A program made the translations under genes and the position numbers. Shown in pieces: positions 12,422-41,197 of a stretch of 64,000 nucleotides of DNA. Source of the stretch: Mesaphorura yosii (taxonomy: Eukaryota; Arthropoda; Collembola; Poduromorpha; Tullbergiidae); NCBI GenBank assembly GCA_009869945.1, contig WIXG01000335.1, positions 21,656 to 85,655 of the forward strand, given 5' to 3'. The notes under the pieces were generated by a model. The model was given only the letters and a program-made list of their open reading frames with translations, searched no databases and was not told where the DNA came from. The number at the start of each line of letters is the position of its first letter. Position 1 is the stretch's first letter.

Positions 12422-15400
12422 ATGTCCAAACGGTGTAGCTCGTCTGGTCTTGGATCTGATGTGAAACAGGAAGCAATTCACGCAATACACTTCAGAGCAG
12501 TGAAGCCTGCAACTAATATAATGGCCCAGGAAGCACAGCCACAAGATGCTCAAGATCTACAGAATAAAGAGAACTCATTCTCCTGTGCAGAGACGGATGA
12601 CGACGACGGTTCTAAGGGACTGTTTCATGAAACAGCAAGACACGCCGTAAAACCACACGAGATGAATAAAATCCCTCTGATTACAACCCCGACATCTTCG
12701 GGAGAGAGCGGCTTATCTTCTGGGGAAGAAGAAGACAATTTTTTCGGCGATCCAGCGCCGGCTCCGATTCAAGCGATTCGACCTTTATATGAGATGGTGA
12801 CAAGTGACACAGAAATCACAAGAATTTGGAGCCGTAAAATGCCGAAACCACGAATTAGTCAAAATAATCCACCAAACTAAGAAAAAGTCATGCCAGTGAC
12901 AAAAACAGGCAGTTCGGAAATAAAGGTTTTTCGACTAATCGAAGTTCAACCTAATCAGCAGAATAGAAAGTCAAATTATAATGGGCTCGTGTCCGCAACT
13001 GATTGTGAGTCTGATGGCGAAGAAGTTGAACTGAGCCAAACAAATATGCACTCTGGCAATCCTACCAATGAACGCAATCACAACGGGATCAATTCTTACC
13101 CTATCAAGGAATTTGCAAAACAACTCGGCGAAAGTCCGTCCGTGATACAAAAGATGATTCAGAGCATGAAGGACTTCTTTGGAATGAGTAAAACTAAGCA
13201 AGACAAGGGAAAAACTCGGCTGATCCGCATGGCAAAACGCCAGTCTGGCAAATCGTCGCTAGACAAATTCAAGACCTACTACGACGGAAATCAGAATGTT
13301 ATCTTCGCACCCGACTTGAATCCAGACAGGAAGAATCTGGACCGACAAATGTACAACGTTTTTTTCTCCGGAACAAAAGCAGAAGAAACCGAAAGTGAAC
13401 GTGGGCGTTCGACCTCGGCTTCGAAAGCTTCTGTCGGTGGTAAAAGAGTGAAACAATTTCCGGCTGAAGAAGGCTGTGACGACGTGGATGAAAGTGAAGT
13501 GAATGAAGTCATCGCCGAGCTGCTTCCAAACTATCCGAACTATTCGAATGAGACGCCAAGCTCCAGACCGAGGCCAAGACCAGCGTGCAGGTCCAGAAGA
13601 TGCACTTGCTCGAAACGATCCCAGCGAGGAGTTTGCATTGTGCCTGGACTCTCGTTGACTCGACGTTGTCGCCCGGTGCATTCAGCCTGCCGAAAACGTC
13701 TACTTTGTGGCGCCCGCGCGAGACCAGACGCGTGCCGAAATTCATGCTGTTGCCACAAACACGAAGGAGACGCAGGTGACTGCGATTTCATAAAGGCGCC
13801 GAGAGGACGAAGTAGGCGAAGGCAGAGTTGTTGGCCGAAAACTGAAGTGTGCAGCATTTGCAATGCGGGCCTGAACAGATACGACCCGATTCACTACGTC
13901 GACGTGGTGCAAGTATAAGTGCGAGAACAACCTGCAACCTGCCTGTGAAGACCTGCCCTTGTTCAGAAGGCGCGACTGCAGGGACAGAAACAGGATGGAC
14001 ACGGCGTGCTTGAAACCTGTGCGAAGATGTCGAAAGCGCTGCTTCAGATGCCACAATTACCTGGAGAATTGCTGTTGCGTCCGGCCTCGCGAGAATTCGT
14101 ACAGATGCTGTCCACCGGTTTGTCCGAAGTCATGCAAACCTGCTCCAAGATCGAGGCCAGAGTGCAGGAGGAAGAAATCCATCTGCGAAATGATGAGGGA
14201 CCACGAACGCTTTTGCCAGCGAGACAACTGCGGAGAAAGTGACGTAAACAGAGGCCAGTGCCTAGATTTCCATTTTTACCATCGGAGACACCACCTGCAT
14301 GACAAGCGGGATGAGCGATGTGGCCTTCCGCCGCGAAGACACCATTGCGATCGAGATCCGACTTATCGAAAACCGGAGTGCCCGGTTCCCAGGCGCATGC
14401 GGCCACTTCCAAACTTCTGCAATCCCGTGCCAGTGCCAGTTTGTCCTCCACCCCGGGCGGACCCCACGATAAATTGCAGGCAGAGGAAATCTGATTATGA
14501 CCTTTTGGAAGAGGAATTCTGCGAGACAAATTATTGTGGCCAGGGCAGAAAACAGGAAAACTGCTATTTGCAATTCTACCCAAAGCAGACTAAACCGTCG
14601 TGTGGGGCGAGGAAATGTCGTCATTTGCCTAAGAATATGGAATGCCCATGCCCCTGTCCTCGTCCGAGGTCGAAAGTAAGAATGATCGATTTACTATGTA
14701 GTCCTGAATCTTTTCAGTAATTAGTCGGTCTAACACAGCGCCTTGAACATGGGACAGAACAACTGCAGATCCAAGCCAAGATGTACGTGGACGGGTGTGG
14801 CGATACAGCAAGTGAGAGTCCGGGAGAAGCAGTGTCCCAACCCTTGCAACCAGTGCCCGCTTTGCCTACCACCGCGGTGTCCTCCGTCTCTTTGCCCGTC
14901 ACGGCCGCCGTCTTGTTCTCCTGTGGTTTGCCAGATCCACCAAGACAAGGAATGCTACCACCCCGTGACGAGGAATTATCGCTGCGATCCGCTCTTGTAC
15001 TACTGCAGCACGACTCCTGATCCAAGCTCCCGTGCCCGAAAGATCTTCCCCAGCAGACCGGCAAATCCTGAATTTCTACTTAATCCACTTGCGATTGATG
15101 CGAATTGTGAAGACCTTCACGTTCTCTTTGATCGTAGTAATAATAACGCTAAGAATATTTCGTGAACCTGTGAATTTTCATCTTCTAATTTAGGAACCGA
15201 AATCGTTGCTGCTGCTGCCGCACCGCAGCCCGAAGAAGTTGTCCTTCCAATCGAGCAACAACGGAGACGGCAAAGTGTGCGTGACAATTCCAAAGAATCT
15301 TAAACACAAAACTACAATTAAAATCAGGACAATGCCAGAATCGAATACGCAGGACAACGGTGATGGTGATGAAAATGGTAATAGAACGAGCGCACTTCGA

Positions 15401-28683: not shown

Positions 28684-30982
28684 TTATGGCTGCGGCTGTG
28701 TGGGCTCATGAGTTGATGAGGAAGCAGGCTGAGCTGGAAGCGGCGGTGGTGACGGTTGGGGTGCGACACTGCTCTGGCGCTGGTCGTCAGATTTTGGGGC
28801 GTTAGGAGCCTGCAAGGAATGTGATGAGGGTCTCCCGCCCTGAACTTGACCCGCTGTGATTTCGGCTGTCGAACCGGTTGCGAACTGACGCATTTTGGCA
28901 ACGATGGCATTCCTCAGGTCTCTGAACTCCAACGGCTCGTGCTCGACAGTCTCCTCTTCGTCCTCCCTGAATACGAGACGATTCGAATCATTTTGAATTC
29001 GTTCCTTTTCATTCATACAATAGTAGAATGCTTTACAAGTTGAGTGCTTTGCTTACTCTCCAGCGTCAATTCTTCCAGCGATGATCACCTTAGGCTTGTA
29101 CGGCCCACCCGTGGCCTTTCCTCGTGGCCCCTGCGTCCCAGGAGCTCTTGCTGGCAACTGACCGCCGTCGATCTCAACAGACTTGCGAATCTCCAGCATC
29201 GCCTTCGCATGCTGGAGTTCAGTGATTCGATGCTCCAGCACGCCAAGACAAAGTGCGGCATTTCGGGGTTGAATTCCACTTCGATTTCCTTTGCGAAACG
29301 AAAAAGCGCGGGGCGGTTGCATTTATTTAATGAACAGCTGGGCCTCAATCGACCCTTGCAAGTCCAATTTACCAAGCAGCTGGATGATCGGGGCATTTGA
29401 GCAGTCTGCGAGGTTAAAGACTTCCTCCACAAGCCCGACAACGACCTCCATGTTGGCCTCGGCCTCTTTCCATTCAGTGTGCAAATCTTCCAGCTCGTGC
29501 ACCGATTTTGTGTACTCTTTCTCAAGTTCCCGCAGTGCTCGTCGCTGTTTCTTATTTTCAGTTTGCTGCATGAGCGACTTCTCTTCAACCTGCGCCTTCA
29601 ACTCGCGAATTGTATCGTACACCACTTCGACCTCGTTGTTTAAATCCGAAATGTACTTGAATTGGGCAAAGTTCGCTTGCTCTTGTGCCAGGTAGCTTTG
29701 GACGAGTGACTCCACGTCGTGAGTGTTGGCCAGGGCTAACAGATCACGGAAACTGTTTTTGTACGACGCGAGAGTGTCGTCCAGCTGCTTCTCCTTCATG
29801 TGATCCGATCGCTCTAAAGAGTCAACGAATTTACGGACAAATAATCGAACGATTTCAGGATTGGCAAATTTTAATGTCAGCGTGGGTTGTGGGTATTTGA
29901 ATGCTTACGTTGCCTAACTTCATCCTCCTCGATTAAACTTCGGACTCGGCTCTTCGCCACCATAAATGCGTGTCCTTTCTCATCGTGGTGCAAGACTCTG
30001 GAAGAATGAGACCATTTAAATGACCATTGAATTCAGAAAGGCTTGGATCAGCATTAAGCATACCTTTGATACTCCTTCATGTCCAGCACGTGCTGCTTGC
30101 TTTCCTTATCATTGCGTTCACGATGCATGTGAATTTTTGAAGTCGCTTCTTCTCTGTAAACAGCAAACGAATGAAAGACGGTTAAGAACGCCAAGAATCG
30201 TTGCCGAACCTCGCATCGTAAGTGCTTGTCGCGTTGTCCACGATGACTGCCATTTGTCGCTTCAGCCGAGCCAACTTCTGCTTATTGCTTTCGTAGCGTT
30301 GGTAGAAGCGTCCGCGTTCCATCAAGTTTAAATTTATTTCCTTGATCACCTGCTGGTTGTTTGCAGTTTGGGTGTCGAAGAGCGTTGTGACCTGTACAGG
30401 AAGCAGAAATAAAAAACGGGCTCAATTCATGCTGTATTCTGGCAGTCTGAAATTGGAAAGGGGAGATAGAGGCTCTTTTCTTCTTACGTGGTATAAACGA
30501 TCTTCGAGCACTCGCCTCCGCTTCTCGGTCTGGGCGACGGTCATCGACTGGCCAAACAGCGCCTGCACTTTGAGTTTCTGCTGCACCACGCGCTTGGTGA
30601 TTTTGTCAACCTGCTCCTCCATCTCAGCAATTTGGCCGAGTTGGTACACAATTTCCGCTTGGAACTGTATGTACTTGTCTATGATGGTCAGAACCGTGCG
30701 AATCGTCTCCTTGTCCAGTTCCTGATTGTGTCGGGACGTCGCATTCTTGAGATCGGTGAGAAGGTCCTCCTTCTCCGCTTGCAGAAAAGCGAGGACGCGT
30801 CGTTGTCGACCAACTTTTGTTCCGCTCTCCTCCGCGTACGCCTTGCGGTCGCTTTCCATGAGACGGTACTGCCTTTGGAGTCTGAGCAGCTCGTCTCGTG
30901 CCATCGCCTCCAAATCGACGTCCGACTCGGCCCGGCGAATCGAAATCTCACGCCGGGGATCTCCTCGGCATCCTGAAGCCAT
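28684..30982 (-). CDS. ODAD1: Outer dynein arm docking complex subunit (ODAD1/CCDC114-CCDC63 family)
   Basis: Seven exons (30488-30982, 30210-30391, 30064-30153, 29909-29997, 29373-29813, 29057-29288, 28684-28966) close to 603 residues; human ODAD1 is 670. Nearly the whole of residues 15-440 is coiled coil. Family-like stretches include RDELLRLQRQYRLMESDRKA, a segment with GRFYQRYESNKQKLARLKRQ, AQEQANFAQFKYISDLNNEV, and LCLGVLEHRITELQ. The C-terminal 110 residues are Gly/Pro/Ser-rich and disordered. The protein anchors outer dynein arms on ciliary doublet microtubules. In an arthropod this implies motile axonemes, most likely sperm or sensory neurons. CCDC63, a sperm paralogue, is the main alternative name. 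The penultimate intron (29289-29372) removes an in-frame TAA. Confidence 0.88.
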
Positions 30983-32002
30983 CCTGGACGATTTATTAGT
31001 TGGTCACGGCCCACTAAACTAAATTCCGGATGCCAGTCCACTAAAACTGCTGTTATTACAAAAACTACGTACAAAAAACACAACGCAAAGAAGAGAATCC
31101 TAAACTATCAGAAGTTATGAACTGAAAAAGAAAAAAGTCGATGCAAATGAAATGAAATGCAACGCCATGAATTTAAATTGATTTAATATGAATTATAAAG
31201 GTTAACGTAACGCAGGTACGAGTCTCGCAAGCAACAACCGGAAATGAGAAGTGGTCCCATTGCCAATTCCGATTCTGCACTAGTCGAATTCCTTTCCCAC
31301 TCGCTCCGCTGAATAAAGAAGGTCGGTTTCGATTCAGCGGTCGGTTTTTCGTAATTGCATTAATGTTGAGCTTGAAGTGTTCTTAATCCCATGAAATTCC
31401 ATTGCCTTGCATTGCTAAGACAGAGTTTTACTGATGTCCTCATCCTCATAAGACAAAGAAAGAAAGGAGATTTCAAGGTTCAAGGACATTGTGGATTTAT
31501 TCTCGTAAACAAAGTTGCTTAAGTCTATTGACATTGAGTCTATTTGTAACAAATGATAGTGGTCCTTTATCTCTTTGGTAAATTTCTTCTCGACAGGCTT
31601 AATTAGTGTCGCAACTACCCATCCGAAACCCGTCTCGGGAGGAAGGAAGTGTTGGATTATCGTATAAAGTGAAAAACTGACTAAACAGCATCAACGCATC
31701 AGCGTCGTGATACGTGTAGTAGACGGTAGACGAAATTTCATCGATACACGTGTATAGGAAGGATAAAAATCCGTAACAAGAGTCGGTAGTAGTTAAAAGG
31801 TAGTTGCAAAGTTCTAACAAGTTAACAACGCTGGCCTATTCTGCTAGTGTGTTATTGTTCTTACGCAATGCTCGTACAATACTGTTTAGTAACAAGTAAC
31901 AATGCCGTCGTGATCGTGATAGTTAGTCTTAAGACAATAAGTACAATGGATAAAATCTGGTCTCTGGTCTAGTTTCCACCTGCGATGGAGTAATTTCTAT
32001 AT
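30983..32002. other. Intergenic, nothing recognised
   Basis: About 1 kb between the ODAD1 start and the RGS gene stop, both on minus. It should contain the ODAD1 promoter and the RGS 3' UTR. No gene-like frame. Confidence 0.45.
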
Positions 32003-35000
32003 TCAAAGGTAGCCCAACGTTGAGTATGTCTTCACGAACGTCGTCGTTTCTGCCTGAGAACCGTTCCTAGAATTTTAGAGTAGAAAATCATGAGTTCAAG
32101 CCAAGTACTACAATTAATTGTCAACAAGCGCAAAGACTTACTCGTGATCCCAAGGGCAAATCGCCTTGTCGACGTCTTTCTTTACTTCAGGCTCAGTCAC
32201 CAGCACGCTGGGTTGTTCTTGCTGCTGCTGTGCAATATTGTTATTTGTCGTAGTCGTAACGTTAACATTCTTAACTATGCTAGCGGAAGTGTTTGACGGT
32301 TCGGAACTCGTAGGAATTTCTATTGTCGTGGATTCCGGCTTCACCTCCTCCAACCGTGTCTTATCGGACTTTACGCTCTGAGAACTGGCCGTGCTCTGCT
32401 GTCTCAACGGAGTCTTGCTCCCGCCCGTAGTGGCCATTCCTGCGCCCGACGCTGATGAGGTGAGACTGTGCTGACTGTCTTGACTCCGTCGCATGCTCAA
32501 TGCTGCCATGCTGTCGGCCTTCTTCGAACCAGCCGCTGATGCTGCTGAGCCCGTCGAAGCGACGCTGTCTTGCTTCGTGATTGCTGAAGTCGCAGCTGTA
32601 GCGGCGGCGGCAGCAGCAGCAGCCGCTGACGTCGAGGGTTTAGCGGGAGGAATGACAAGCGGTGAGTGCGAAGAGGTTTCGCCAACAACAACAGCTGCAG
32701 CAGTGACGCTGTGTGGCTCGATTTGTTTCGCCACCGACTCCTGGCAGGTGATGCTGCTGCTCGAACAGGGCACTGGTTCATTTGTACTGCTAGAAGGAGA
32801 GTACGAGGAAGAGTACGGAGCATCGGCGCCGGACCCGGCTCGTGTGACGCTGTTGCTCGTACAAGGAAGATTCTGTGACGAAGACGTAATGGTTGTCGAG
32901 GAAAGGTTAGCCGGAATTGAACCCGCTTTTCCGCTCTCAAGCAACGACTTGCTCGTACTCGGCTTCGCTTCCATCAAACTCTGCATGGCTGACTTGTCTG
33001 GAAGCGCGCTGGAACTTTCCCACGGGCACACGTCGTCAAAACTTTGACTCCTGAAATGGCAGAAATTAGATCCAACAAAAAATCTGGATTAGTGCACGTG
33101 TTCCGTAGTATTTCATCGTATTTAACACGAAGACAGTTGTAAGAGTTGATGCAAATGCAGCAATTCAGAGCCACAACGACGATTAATCGTACCAATAATA
33201 CGGACAAAGCCCGCAATCACAATTAGCAATCCCTCCACGACAAAATTAAGCGTACGCGTACAAAGTACAATGCAAATGCACAAAGAAACGAAGAAGCTTA
33301 GTTGGAAGAGCATCCAACTCATTCTTCACTGGATTCCAATCAGCACGAGGATGTGCTGGACAAAAATAGGAAATTAGCAGCCTGGTGTCTACCAGGCTGC
33401 CAGAATGCTTCAGCCATCAAAATCAGAAACATTTTGCAATTCACACAATATGACAGAAACATAAAGAACACGGATCCAAAAAATTCAGGCTCCAACAATG
33501 AAACGAAAAATTCATATTACACGAAGTTTCCGTGTACGAAATGACAAACGAGACAGGCAACAATCAAAACTCAAGACCTTACAAAACACAAAGAGGGTAT
33601 AAATTCTGGCCTCCTTACAAGTTTTTCTGAAAAGGGGCAACTTTAATTTTGTTGTTTTCTGGAAAATCTCCCCTGTAGTGGAAAAATCATGAATCATAAA
33701 TATTCTGGAGCAAACCTGTTGACTTGATATCTTTGCTCAAAGTCGTTTGAGAAATTAGATTTTTCATGTGTTATAGTTAAAATACACAGATGAAGTTCGA
33801 TGTCTTTTGTCATTGCTGACCTGTATGGAGTGTCTGGAAGCTTGGAAAGCTGTTCAGAATCCTGAAGCGAGTCTGCATTCGAGGCCGTTAAGTAGTCACC
33901 CGGCTTAGCCCCGGTAGTTATCAGCATGACTTCATCAGTCGCTTTCACCACTTCGCCGACACCCGCGGTTGCACTCTGCGTTCCAACCGGAAAGATTACC
34001 GGATTCGTACCAGACGACTTTTTCTTGGTTGGTGCGGCAAAGCTGAAGAATCTAAGGCGTAAATGGTGAGAGGAGCCATTAAAAGACGCGGAATCAATAC
34101 GCGTGTATGTGTACGCGGGCATTTTATATATTTTTTACCTTTTCTTTTGACTGATCTGCAACGCGTTCGCGAGAAACGTTTTGTAGTGGTCAGACCTTAT
34201 GTATCTCGGATAGCAGTCTTTTTTCAGGAGCATTGTGTATCTGTGCATCGAAAATATACGCAAGGTTACTGAAAAATTCGAGCTCTCAAGCGGCACCGGT
34301 AGTCAAGCAGATTTCGCTTACACATGATCAGCAGCTGGGTCAAACACAAACCGAGACGGGGCGACGTAGTTCATTTCCTTCTGCACAGCCTCCATTGTCC
34401 TCATATCAATATTAATTTCACATGGAGCACCAGGCGATAAAAATTCACTATGCAAAAATACAAAGTACGCATGAGTAATGAGCAGGTTCAATAAAACCGC
34501 ATTCATTATTTGGATATTATGTAGCGAACTCACTTATAAATCTCTGAAGCCTTCCTTTTAATTTTCGATGCTGGTCCATGTCGTAAATCACGTACGGCGA
34601 GCCAAAACCTTATATTCTCGTGGCAATATTCTTTCTTCAGGTACGCAGTAAATTCACGGAGCCCTAAATCAAGAACACAGCAAATGACCCAGTCTTAAAA
34701 TGTCCAGTAAATCATTGGGCCATCATGTGAATTTAATTAGCATACCGGTGGGATCATAAATCAGGTTCTCCATTGATATACCCCACTTCTTCACTCTTCT
34801 CTCGACGGGAATCTCAACTCTGTACAAAGCACAAGACACAAGAAAAGAAAGGGTTAAAGCCTCTGTGTATTTTGCTTTGACCTGCTAGTCATAATAATTA
34901 TAAACAATGCTGATTGACACAAGACAGAAAACGCAAACGCCAGCGGCCACCCGCCCGGTTGCGTTGTTCGGACTTTGTACTTGGCATGTGCACATTTTTC

Positions 35001-38000
35001 TATGACATGCTATGATTTATGACTTCAACGTCTCCTGCGCCTCAACGTGCATGATCAAAATACTCAAAATGACTTACAAAGGAGCGTTAATAACCCAAAA
35101 GTACGTATCTTCAGTCACCCACGGATTGGACGGCTGTCTTGTGACGAGAAATGCATCGTGTTCGTGGTACACTTCACAATGCGTTGCCAAACTTTCCAGA
35201 GCTTGAGACACTGCGAATTGAAAGGCGAAGGTTCACTTTAGCTGGAACGGATTCTTCTAGGAACTGTTGCTAAATTGGGACTGATAATTATACATGAGGA
35301 GAAGATAGCGGAAAGAAGATTGGATTTTTAATTGGATTATGTTAATGCTGTTTCGAACCTTTAGTTCTGCTGCGGAGACACGAAATTCTCAGAAGAGCAA
35401 CCTCTGCTCTCAAGTCTTCGATAAGATTGGTTCTGCCCTTCTGCTTCATTCCTTCGTGCGAGTGGAAATCGTTCGTGAACATTGGTGGTGTCTCAATCCT
35501 AAGAAACATAACGCGTAAAGTGTTAAAAAAAAATGATATGCGGTCGAAGGTGTCTCATGTTGCCTCTTCTGCACAATGCGGCAGTCGATTCATACACTCG
35601 CTTTATGAAATAATAATATAAATAGCAAAGCTAGCGGCGGGCCTTGGCTTAGGAAGCTGACATGGCTAGCCTCCTTAGCCACTTAGGGACTTTGCCCGGT
35701 AACTGCAACTCAGCCAAATTAATCCGGAAACCCTTCGAGCGAAGGCGAATGCAGAAAGAATCATGGAAGGGGAATTACACCTATCGGGGGGAGATCCGGC
35801 TTTCAGGTGCACTTTCGTTGGTCGTAATGCTGCTTTCCATACGGCTAGGTTGCTTTTTCATCACCAGTCTTTGTACCGAGGGTAATAGCCTATCTAGACC
35901 ACGGATTTAGTGGGAAGAATTTCGTGAGATAGCCAAGGAAGAGTCAAGGATAATAAAAAAAAAGTGCTAGATAATTCCGATTTGCTACCAAAAATATTGT
36001 TTCGAAACAATATTTCTGGTAGCAAAGACAGGATATGCTGACACTACGTCCGTCCCCTCGAAATTCTCAGTGTGTCTCTGGAATTTCGAAGCAAGGCAGT
36101 GCCTGCTACGAAATCCTTGCTACCAATTGCTTAATGTAAATAGGGTTTAAGTTAGAAGTTCGTGTCATAGTAAAGTCAAGGGATATAATTAATGGTGCCA
36201 CTTCTCTACATTGGGTCCAACGGTGGAATTGCAAGCTAATTTCGAAGTTTCAAAGAATACATTCAACTGAAGGAGAAAGAAATACCACAAGACGCCAAGA
36301 GTGGTGGAGATTCACAGAAGGGCTCGTCTTAAGATATTACAGTGTCATCGGAACTGCGTAGAGCAGAGGAATTAATGAACGCAGTAAAAGCGCAATCGAG
36401 ATTTTCACCAATGTTCTCAACTTTGTTGTTTTTGTGGACCAAGAAACCGGCGACGACGTATTGCAATACGTTAGGAACATTTTGAAGAACCCGTTGAAGC
36501 AAATTATTACATATGTTGGGAAGCGAGCAATCTACAATATTACAGACCTTGACATTGCAAAGGATCACGCGTCAAAATCGAGCAGCACTATTATTGATCC
36601 GTACACAAATGAGAAGAAAGTCGCGTTCTTGGTTGCAAGGCGTTACCATCAAAATAAAGAAGAGATGCAGGAAGAAGAATCAGTTTTCCAGATAAGCCAA
36701 TTCAGTGCCGATTGTGCTTTCGATATAGTTTGACAATTTGATATTTAAATTTCAGCTTGTTGGACAATTCAGCGGTTCAAAAACAAATGTTCAATGGAAG
36801 TCGTGTAACAGAAGAATGGAAGGTGGGCCCATTGACACCTTCTCCATGAAGCGGATTTTGGATGCACAAAAACTAGGCAGAAGTAATGACCCACTTTTAT
36901 GTGTTAAAGAACCTTGCCACGAGCTACCTCAAGGGTAGAGACTTCTACGCTGAATATCACGTCAAGGAAGAGGATATTGTTAAGTTGAATTTCCAAGTTG
37001 CAGACTAACTGCTTCTGAGTAACCCTACTGCAATAATTCCGTAATAGTTGTTTAACTAATTCATCCTTTTCGTTATCCATTTATAAGTTGCAATGTTCAA
37101 CATTTGTACTTACAACTCAAAACATAGCTGTGTTAACTTAGTAAACCAACTTCACTTACTTCGAATGGTTAAATAACTTCACGACTAAATGTCCAACTTA
37201 CATTTAAATACCATTCAACTTACAAGCTTATTGCTCCAGGAGGAGGTCTCAGCACGCGCCAGAAGGCCCTTTCTTGACTGTCAGCCACCATCTTGTCAAC
37301 CTTCTTCCGCTCTTTGCTGATTCGCACCTGTGCGGATAAAATCAAAATGGCGTCCGTAATCGTACGATTACGAATCAAAATCCGATCTCTAACGTCGCAA
37401 TGCGTTCTGATTATAAGATTACGTGCCTGTTCATCCGCTTGCATTGTGACAAAATCCCATTTTTGCGCCAAGTTTTTTCGCAACGATCCCAGCGCCTCCA
37501 TTTCATAGTCTTCTAGCCCGTGTTTCTGTTTGTTGCGCATTGTTCGCTTTGATAAATAAATTGCGTAATCCACATTATCTAAGCACTATTAATAATAGAT
37601 TAATTAATAATTTAATAATATCAAGTAATAATAAGTCTTTTATTACCGGTACTTGAGATGGCCAATAGTATGGAGTCTAGAGTTCAGAAGAAAAACGATG
37701 AGCGATTATTGGAATACTACGCTCGTACTTTTAATTAATGGGCTCGTATAAACATAGCGTTGTCGATTTACCTGAAATCGATACAAGGAAGAATCATCTT
37801 TGACTGATAAATTTCGGTTGTCGCCCACAGGAAAAAAGTATCCATGCTGGCACAATAAATTCGCAATGTGAATGGCTTCCACTACAAGACAAGAGTTTGA
37901 ATAATTAAGGACACATGACCAACTTCGGCAATTTGTACTTTTACAAGACTTTCATCGATCGAAGTTTGACTTTGAGTGCAACTCACCTGAGTCTTCAATT

Positions 38001-38307
38001 GAAAGTCTTTCCATTAACCATTCAATAATGTCGTAGCCAGCAAAGGCAGCTGGAATGGAAGTGAGAAACAACTTCTGACTGCGGACAGGAACACCAGTTT
38101 CAGCATCTTGCATCTCTTTGATGAGGCTCTCCATCTGAATTAAAATTAAAATCCCTGGATCTTTGCACGGCACAAACATTTTCTTTACTTCTCCAGCCTC
38201 CTCCAGTGTGACTCGCTTACCTTTGAGTACGATGATGGTCGTTTGAGGATGACTTCCTGATGCAGCGGATCTGGAGAGCTGGCCTTTCCATGTGAGAGCA
38301 ACTCCAT
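32003..38307 (-). CDS. RGS7: R7-family regulator of G-protein signalling (RGS6/7/9/11 type) with long C-terminal tail
   Basis: Fourteen exons close exactly to 878 residues: 38221-38307, 37987-38134, 37772-37881, 37647-37676, 37224-37585, 35359-35498, 35078-35210, 34746-34819, 34534-34663, 34322-34447, 34139-34240, 33821-34042, 32142-33050, 32003-32066. A DEP domain (about 35-115) has IPAAFAGYDIIEWLMERL and LLCQHGYFFPVGDN. The helical extension (NVDYAIYLSKRTMRNK, DSQERAFWRVLRPPPG) follows. A GGL domain (about 265-325, EDLRAEVALLR, SNPWVTEDTYFW) binds Gbeta5. The RGS domain (about 345-475, NIRFWLAVRDL, SPGAPCEINIDMRTMEAVQ, KDCYPRYIRSDHYKTF) speeds GTP hydrolysis by Galpha-o/i. The 400-residue Ser/Thr/Ala-rich tail is unusual and carries CPWE and CPWD motifs. 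Residues from 37386 to 37451 could instead be a 66-nt intron. Confidence 0.92.
35638..36125. repeat. Foldback-rich insertion in an RGS7 intron
   Basis: Inside the RGS intron 35499-37223. A near-perfect palindrome spans 35981-36026: two 23-base arms around TTCGAA with one mismatch. A second hairpin pairs TCGAAATTC (36058-36066) with GAATTTCGA (36081-36089). A third pairs AGCAAGG (36090-36096) with CCTTGCT (36115-36121). TTGCTACCA occurs at about 35982 and 36117, and its reverse complement at about 36017. The preceding 300 bases (35638-35930) are more GC-rich than the surroundings. This looks like a small foldback transposon or a structured RNA region; no transposase is seen. Confidence 0.45.
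36362..37005 (+). pseudogene. Decayed coding fragment inside the RGS7 intron
   Basis: Coding-like pieces lie on the plus strand, opposite to the host gene, and switch frame. From 36362 a frame includes FVVFVDQETGDDVLQYVRNI and ITYVGKRAIYNITDLDIAKD and stops near 36733. A region around 36780-36935 continues in another frame (CHELPQG end), and 36903-37005 in a third (YLKGRDFYAEYHVKEEDIV, then stop). A charged segment (SSELRRAEELMNAVKAQ) sits just upstream in yet another frame. The protein-like composition over several frames suggests a broken gene or mobile-element remnant. I cannot name the parent. Confidence 0.4.
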
Positions 38308-41197
38308 CACGACACGCAGTCCGCGTATGCGACACAAGCAAAGACTTGCTTTGATTCAGCAATTAGCAATTACTTAATAGGCTTGGTTCTATTGACGCAG
38401 AAGTATAGAAGCACGACCCAAATATGAAAGTCCATGATTGCGAATTACGATCACGGCGATTGCGACTGCGACGATATACAAATTTGCAAGCCAAGCCCAA
38501 GCAGTGGTAAAAACTAAAAAGTCTGATGCACCAAAACATAAAAGCCAGGATCAAATTACGGCTGCACTGCCATCACTGCATTCTGATATTCGAGATCACT
38601 GCCACTGACACTGCGACGCGACGCATAAAATTCTGTTAGCCCTCAGTTAATCCCATTATGAAATTATGATTATGATTACCCTGTGATTAGACTTTAAATC
38701 TCATTTTCGCGTAGCGTAGCAGATTCACGATTCACGACGACGACACAGCGAATTGAGAATTTGCGAATGTCAACGATGAGAAGCACTTTTGCGTTACACT
38801 CGTACTTTACCCCATTATTATTGCAATTAGGATGACTGATCACACAATATCACCAAACCCAACACCCAGCCCAGATTTGGTGTGGACTCAGACGAGCACC
38901 GTCACTGCTTATTAAACGCACGCTCCCGTTTTTAATGATTTCCGTCGTAGTCGAAGTCGTGTCATTGTTGCCGTGCTCGTTCTTTTGATGATGGGCAGAG
39001 CAGGAGGAGTAGTAATGAAGGTGTTCGTGTCTCTTTCTCCTCGTCGCCTGTCACCCGTCGTCGACTCGTGTGTCGTCTTTCTCTCCTTTCTTCTCTCCTT
39101 TCTTCAAATCCCGTCTTTCTATTTCTTTGGGCTCGTGCAATAAATTAAGTATTGATCTCTCTTTGTGAATGCCGTGTGTGGCATGAGGCAGACTCGAGCG
39201 AAGGAGGTTGGCAGCGATGCGAAGCAATCACGAGCTACCACCACAACCAGAAGTCAATACTTAAAAGAGAAGAATTTTATATTTTTATGGTGTAGTCAGC
39301 AGTTTCATTTCACGACTGGGTTTTATAGGTTCATATTATTATGGCCATTGCTCTGCCATTTGCGCGTACTTTACTCACTCCTCCGACAGCCGACCGACCG
39401 AGTTTCGCCTCGTTCGACAACACAGGCACTCGACCTGCCTGCACAGTTCGAGTTCGAGGAGCTGCGAGTGTGAAGAGCAAATAAGAAGGAGGGGCAGTAG
39501 TAATCGTAGCACTGGTAATAGAAACTAGAACCAGGAGCGAATCAGTCAGTCGGCCGTCGGTTCTCCGTTGCACGTTGCACGAGAAAAAAACGACGAAGAA
39601 AGTGCCGTGCGCGTGATGGAAATGGGGAAAACATTAGATTTTCCTCGTGCACACGCGATAGAAAGAAATCCATTCGAGTTCATCTTTATACACACGTCCC
39701 AGAAGCCCCATTGCCGTCCAAGTCGTAGCTTGTGCATTGTGAGGCTGCTTTTTATGTTGATCATGATTTCATGTTCACGTTATGGTCGGGTCTGGTCTGG
39801 TCGTGAAGATGCCATTCGCAATTCACAATTCGCATATTATTCATGTCATATTTCGCCGTCCGTCCTGTGCAAATGCTGGCTGGTAGTTGGCAATGCTGTG
39901 CCTGTCGTTTTAAAAGTCAGAGAGCATTCTCAGTCATATTTCAGGAGTCGGACAAGAGGTTAGCGAGCAGCAGCGCAGGAAATGGTAGTGCAAGAGAAAA
40001 GTAAATATGACAAGCACGTAGCGCATGATAATAATTTTATGGCTTTGCCACCGCATCGCACAACCGGCCACCAATATTAAACTAATGCATAATGCGAATT
40101 CCTGCCATTTCCATTATATCCATCGTCGCGTCGCCGCCTGGAATGGCCGGCATGGCGTGTGGCAAAGCATCATTGACACAGCACAGCACACGGGTCAGGA
40201 ACCCAAATCCAATGTGCTCTTTTATTACTGGGCTAAAACAATGAGATACAACAATTTGACAAACACGTCAACACTCTCAATACGCTAATGTGAAACCTGT
40301 CCTTGTTTCGAATGCTTCAGCGGTGATTCAGATTCCGAATGATGGCTGATACGGTAAATGGACCACATTTGTGATTTCATTTTCATGATTTCATGATCAC
40401 AAGATTAGAGATAGACGGACTCGGAGACGGCTTTCCTTTCCCATTTAGCAATGCAATTCAGCATGTCGTTATCACGTTTCCTATCACTCTCCTATGAGCT
40501 TTTTATAACCTATGTTTTTGATTGCAATTCGTATAATTCGATGGAAGAACGATGGCAAAATCGTGAGACTAATATGTTCATGCTAAACTTCTACTCCTGA
40601 CGCAAAAGACCAAACTACTTTTATTATATATCTTTGTGATTGAATTTTGAACAAGGAAAACGGCGTCCGTGTGCTTGATGCTAGAAACCACGGCGCACTA
40701 TTTTCAAATGTAAACAAGCTTTATTCGGAATGCAGCAAATGACGTAAGGCATGAGCAAAGCGTAAGCGAAGAAACGACCAACTCAGCCTTTGCTTTGTAG
40801 TGCACGTAGAGCGGTAGCGGTAAAGCATTGCATTAGTGGTTTAGTAATCTTTTATGCAGTGAGTCGTCCGCGTCGATTTCGTAATTCCATTTAGAGAACG
40901 TCTCGAGTTTTTAGTTAATTATTAAGCCACCGAGATTTATACAATTAACAACTAAGTTTGGACTTAATTCTTGAAGTAAGTCGTAAGCACGCACATTTGA
41001 CAGCTTTACATCGTACACTGTTTGATCGAGTAGAAGTATTCTATAGATTACAAACGAGATGTACGTGTAACTAACTTTCCAACCTATTTACATTAGTTAA
41101 TTGCTAGTTTGGTACCATATTTTGCAAGTACAAGTGAACGACTGCTGCAACACAAGTTCCCAATTCTAATTCAAGCTTGTTTGTCACGCCACAGACG
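38308..41197. other. Long non-coding region between divergent RGS7 and ALYREF
   Basis: About 2.9 kb, the largest gap in the window. It contains CT-rich runs (about 39060-39115) and AT-rich parts, but no frame with domain or splice support. It probably holds the RGS7 promoter and 5' UTR exons and the ALYREF promoter. Its length suits a neuronal signalling gene with complex control; that is inference. Confidence 0.45.

Follow-up and report, generated by a model that had tools for sequence, protein, structure and literature searches.

Does a receptor-type CPW motif truly belong to an RGS protein, and what might it do there? A sequence-only reading of a region of the Mesaphorura yosii genome had proposed an R7-type RGS protein whose long tail recalls GPR158 and GPR179, the receptor partners of this family. 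We analysed this region within a stretch of 64,000 nucleotides of contig WIXG01000335.1, termed the window, in whose positions all coordinates are given. The gene and the domains of its core are the following:

32003-38307, minus strand: R7 RGS gene with 15 coding exons, encoding 848 aa (ATG at 38307, stop ending at 32003; consistent exon phases and four Pfam domains)
37772-38134, minus strand: DEP domain, aa 43-114, exons 2-3 (PF00610, E 1.5e-16)
35359-37676, minus strand: DHEX, aa 117-215, and first part of GGL, exons 4-7 (PF18148, E 9.8e-42; PF00631, E 1.6e-9)
34139-34819, minus strand: RGS domain, aa 319-436, exons 9-12 (PF00615, E 7.5e-30)

The exon model maintains a single frame across all 14 introns (2547 nt, 848 aa), 13 of which have GT-AG ends and one of which, after position 37427, has GC-AG ends. 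This GC-AG intron, intron 5 (37328-37426, minus strand), is 99 nt long and open in frame, and its retention would add 33 residues within DHEX. DEP, DHEX, GGL (aa 241-299, finishing in exon 8) and RGS all score above the Pfam gathering threshold and stand in the R7 order, which is common to RGS7 and RGS9; the family also includes nematode EGL-10 and EAT-16. The closest solved structures by sequence in the PDB are likewise RGS7 (E 3.5e-115, query 27-438) and RGS9 (E 1.3e-108, query 24-442). Judged by its domain set and by similarity over the entire core, the predicted protein is a member of the R7 RGS family, as the sequence-only reading had it. What sets it apart from RGS7 and RGS9 is a tail of 402 aa with two CPW[ED] motifs.

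Within the family the signals are mixed. The DEP-DHEX half reaches 219 bits against RGS7 versus 184 bits against RGS9, and a 168-aa query comprising the last GGL residues, the linker and the RGS domain reaches 155 bits against RGS9 versus 135 against RGS7. The loop between X-alpha-1 and X-alpha-2 of DHEX, placed by eye, has the length of that of RGS7, whereas the loop of RGS9 is two residues shorter; EQVRISKERKKVD, which follows the loop in this by-eye placement, is closer to RGS9 in alignments. According to the available text of PMC8611064, an RGS7-like X-alpha-1/X-alpha-2 loop is said to differ in RGS9/11 and to mark the GPR158-binding RGS6/7 branch. We would place the M. yosii protein outside the vertebrate split between RGS6/7 and RGS9/11. 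The 448-aa core, searched without its tail, gave no relative among prokaryote contigs (20 pattern matches) or viral contigs (15). At aa 423 in the RGS domain (34139-34240, minus strand) the protein reads KKDCYPRY, compared to D-S-Y-x-R in RGS7 and RGS9, a change of Ser to Cys at a position which we take to be a G-alpha contact. Relative to RGS9 there is also one additional residue (VYTML), with two more before VYTML.

The tail (aa 447-848) consists to 42% of Ser, Thr and Ala, and from this composition it is probably disordered. Its exons and motifs are:

33821-34051, minus strand: exon 13 (231 nt), encoding the initial part of the tail without a CPW motif, with phase 2 at either end
32142-33050, minus strand: exon 14 (909 nt), encoding Ser/Thr/Ala-rich tail with both CPW motifs, likewise with phase 2 at either end
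32003-32066, minus strand: exon 15, end of the tail (...TFVKTYSTLGYL) and stop, without CPW motif
33017-33031, minus strand: motif 1, VCPWE, aa 532-536
32147-32161, minus strand: motif 2, ICPWD, aa 822-826

The sequence-only reading had described an RGS domain that runs in phase into about 400 Ser/Thr/Ala-rich residues, with SFDDVCPWESS near the start of the tail and DKAICPWDHE near its end, and both descriptions hold: the phases are consistent, and the two peptides are found at aa 528-538 and aa 819-828, respectively. The junctions it named, 33821/33050 and 32142/32066, are the same as those used by the 15-exon model. As a refinement, both CPW motifs lie within exon 14, one copy near each end of it. 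The tail contains 2 Trp and 5 Cys residues, and both Trp and two of the Cys are inside the CPW motifs. Moreover, the six frames of the window, 127,996 codons in total, contain the tripeptide CPW nowhere except at these two tail sites. When the tail residues were shuffled 200,000 times, at least one CPW[ED] appeared in 37 shuffles, at least one [VI]CPW[ED] in 4 and two CPW[ED] in none. Two copies of [VI]CPW[ED] are far beyond chance.

We rejected a recent DNA duplication as the origin of the two copies. There is no DNA repeat family connecting the two sites and no tandem repeat at 31000-39000, the Pro codons of the motifs differ (CCG versus CCT), and the flanks are unlike, only one Asp and the CPW core being identical on alignment at the protein level. 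Since, in addition, the outer residues V/I and E/D vary conservatively, the CPW core looks as if it were kept at the level of the protein. A short core retained amid changing flanks would, in this one genome, match the pattern of a binding motif in a disordered tail. Searches with simple forms of other short motifs found no 14-3-3 mode 1, EVH1, WRPW, class I PDZ, GoLoco-like or LxxLL motif in the tail, which also has two PxxP and one KKKS.

These numbers bear on the view that the tail has a two-copy motif with a lineage-specific use, or with none, which resembles GPR158 and GPR179 by coincidence. The matching positions are only five, and the flanks differ not only between the copies but, by eye, also from the EVCPWEVTE of GPR179. 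No Pfam family above the cut-off covers the tail, and PDB searches with two tail segments (48 and 43 aa) and with a two-site motif profile gave no match beyond chance; a GPR158 or GPR179 chain is absent from the matches of the two segments, the profile and the GPR179 peptide. The weak matches that did appear, 1vmf (E 0.38), 9xnl (E 1.4) and, below the cut-off, Pfam Gemini_AL2, were dismissed as chance. Furthermore, because the window was read for oddities, striking matches were to some extent selected for. The shuffles, none of which produced two copies, speak against coincidence, as does the fact that the bearer of the motifs belongs to the very family that works with GPR158 and GPR179. Coincidence is in our estimate unlikely.

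A more basic doubt concerns the gene model itself, which is predicted from genomic sequence: exon 14 might come from another transcript and the R7 protein might end soon past exon 13. The exon 13 donor, GTCAGC, is weak by eye, read-through beyond it reaches a stop at 33694, and an ATTAAA at 33647 could serve such a short form. The phases, however, agree at every exon junction, and exon 14 is open across 302 codons, while base shuffles of it were open in 0 of 20,000 cases (mean 11.8 stops). Motif 1 starts at complete codon 7 of this exon, ahead of any in-frame ATG, and thus no start codon within exon 14 could yield a separate protein with both motifs. Finally, the sole AATAAA between 37644 and 31000, at 31501, is downstream of exon 15:

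31496-31501, minus strand: AATAAA, candidate poly(A) signal, about 500 nt past the stop

Codon use was scored with a training set of 2883 codons from the RGS core and from stop-to-stop frames of neighbouring genes, not all of which are Pfam-matched. The synonymous codon score of exon 14 is 0.049, with a 95% null of 0.053 from random places; a different forward frame of the exon, with 13 stops, scores 0.087, and an antisense frame, with 5 stops, is similar overall (0.121 versus 0.124). Codon use is uninformative in this genome and does not prove that exon 14 is coding. The phases, the open frame and the poly(A) signals favour the 15-exon model, codon use being too weak to decide, and we rejected the artefact, which we regard as very improbable.

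The sequence-only reading had held that R7 proteins typically end soon after their RGS domain. This overlooks RGS9-2, which at about 670 residues has a long C-terminal extension past the RGS domain, as does the M. yosii protein. The extension of RGS9-2 is made by splicing and, according to the accessible parts of PMC5795056, is postulated to take the role that PDE-gamma has for the short form of 480 residues. It amounts to about 190 residues, compared to 303 from exon 14 alone in M. yosii, and no CPW motif is mentioned for it in the same parts of PMC5795056. No PDE-gamma chain was matched in the PDB by the two tail segments. Long R7 tails are therefore already known, and what is new is an R7 RGS protein that carries receptor-type CPW motifs on a skippable exon. 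Among the literature matches listed, considered as titles and abstract openings and mostly outside subscription papers, none concerned an RGS protein with CPW motifs.

The suggestion that the tail recalls the receptors is corroborated by the literature on both of them. The portions of the review PMC9027133 at hand name two VCPWE motifs in GPR158, state that they regulate its interaction with Go and trap G-alpha-o, and report that RGS7 promotes the release of GPR158 from G-alpha-o; GPR179 bears EVCPWEVTE (PMC11291154, in part). The M. yosii tail has the [VI]CPW[ED] core in common with the tails of both receptors, and, like that of GPR158, has it in more than one copy. GPR158, a metabotropic glycine receptor according to a reference title in PMC12716839, and GPR179, described as the night-blindness receptor, belong to class C of the seven-helix receptors and have Cache/PAS and EGF-like domains. 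The M. yosii protein, in contrast, has no receptor domain, as Pfam at E up to 1 recovers no domain beyond the four of the R7 set; here the RGS protein itself carries the motif, whereas in GPR158 and GPR179 the carrier is the recruiter receptor. The available text of PMC12716839 describes the seven-helix domain of this receptor class as older than animals and its domain set as an innovation of stem animals, so that such a receptor may well exist in this animal too.

As to what is bound, the sequence-only reading had offered, besides gain by fusion or convergence, a shared G-protein or RGS contact and had linked the CPW motifs to the recruitment of RGS proteins. The latter link is not borne out by the literature, in which RGS7 is held through its DHEX domain by the loops, TM3 and the cytoplasmic coiled coil of GPR158 (PMC8611064, in part). 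The same source, as far as available, reports that separate halves of the GPR158 cytoplasmic domain recruit RGS7-G-beta-5 and G-alpha-i/o, although it is inconsistent as to which half recruits G-alpha, the second in its Results and the first in its Discussion. Of the suggestions offered, a contact with the G protein fits best, because, according to the review, GPR158 engages Go under the control of its VCPWE motifs; the partner reported for the motif is G-alpha-o rather than the RGS protein. R7 RGS proteins are, moreover, Gi/o-selective and reported to be G-alpha-o selective (PMC7572916, in part).

The motif could nevertheless be common to the tail and to GPR158/GPR179 on account of another partner, such as a scaffold, a ubiquitin ligase or the R7/G-beta-5 complex, in which case the tail would localise or stabilise the RGS protein without capturing G-alpha-o. 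The PairK authors chose EVCPWEVTE of GPR179 as a TRAF6-type candidate ligand (PMC11291154), and, according to the accessible text of PMC12796736, both RGS7 and GPR158 were found by mass spectrometry among proteins associated with Go-GTP in brain lysate, so that one complex could contain several partners of the motif. It is Go, on the other hand, that PMC9027133 names as the partner of VCPWE in GPR158. We rejected the TRAF6 ligand grammar for the tail: its pattern, P.E..[FYWHDE], has 0 matches in the 402 aa, and the shared core is thus not TRAF6 grammar. A different partner appears rather unlikely to us.

Our preferred reading, by analogy to GPR158 and GPR179, is that of an R7 RGS protein with a long tail that may bear two G-alpha-o capture motifs; we give it a little less than an even chance. 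The DEP-DHEX half, together with G-beta-5 on the GGL domain, would anchor the protein at the membrane, while the [VI]CPW[ED] motifs of the tail would loosely hold G-alpha-o close to the RGS domain of the same molecule, resulting in faster GTP hydrolysis and release. The RGS protein would so do in cis what the receptor tail reportedly does in trans for RGS7, RGS9-2 with its long tail being the nearest precedent. Skipping of exon 14 would produce a form without the capture arm and act as a splice switch. All three elements, the binding of G-alpha-o by the tail, its hand-over and the splice switch, are steps that we infer. A Gaussian-chain calculation with assumed segment length and exponent estimates the local concentration near the RGS domain at about 0.7-1.0 mM for motif 1 and 0.08-0.09 mM for motif 2, and in this model estimate such concentrations would suffice for even a weak motif to matter. 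Motif 2 ends with D, not E, which we counted against capture. The motif and the RGS domain might also compete, given that RGS7 is reported in PMC9027133 to promote release of the receptor from G-alpha-o.

A wider version of this proposal holds that the motif is an old G-alpha-o-capture element of the R7 complex, which may sit on the receptor or on the RGS protein, and that its place here on a skippable exon might make the protein a receptor-independent, splice-regulated trap-and-hydrolyse enzyme. This we regard as doubtful, if conceivable. How R7 proteins gather G-alpha-o and what VCPWE does in GPR158 and GPR179 are medically relevant questions, for which a motif and a GTPase-accelerating domain in one natural chain would be a simple test system without a membrane receptor. 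Such a protein would also show that a short motif may be transferred to either member of a signalling complex, or originate there.

The exon structure is compatible with the splice switch. Exons 11 to 14 each start and end in phase 2, and the predicted skip products, 545 aa without exon 14 and 468 aa without exons 13 and 14, both lack a CPW motif. Since exon 14 contains both motifs and its 909 nt are divisible by three, its skipping would leave the protein in frame but armless. This in-frame length is weak evidence by itself, because 7 of the 15 exons (1, 4, 5 and 11-14) have lengths divisible by three, and two of these lie within the RGS domain. The 468-aa form would be about equal in length to short RGS9 (about 480 residues in the text of PMC5795056 at hand). 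Upstream of exon 14 there is a further element:

33375-33402, minus strand: hairpin with 12 uninterrupted pairs, one of them G-U, which intron 13 carries about 320 nt ahead of exon 14

It folds at -24.7 kcal/mol with a z-score of -3.75, and 0 of 200 shuffles are as stable; this z-score is flattering, as the hairpin was chosen after a scan, from four matches where 2.5 are expected. It has no Rfam match, and that it might govern the splicing of exon 14 is a guess.

The genes around the RGS gene are of PDZ and arfaptin type, sugar transporter, ODAD1 type, RBM22 type and SNAP type, a set compatible with an animal. The ODAD1-type coiled coil (outer dynein arm docking; 29323-29904, minus strand) follows the RGS gene downstream on its strand and hints that the animal has motile cilia or flagellate sperm; an open frame beside it, at 30422-31003, has no Pfam match. 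At 12881-15165 (plus strand) three consecutive long open frames are largely Cys/Arg/Pro-rich; two of them were scanned against Pfam, without a match. Inside intron 6, antisense to the RGS gene, an open frame of 123 aa (36362-36733, plus strand) has no Pfam match and a PDB match at the level of chance (E 0.51). Finally, an inverted repeat of 23 nt with 96% complementarity and no spacer is found at 35981-36026.
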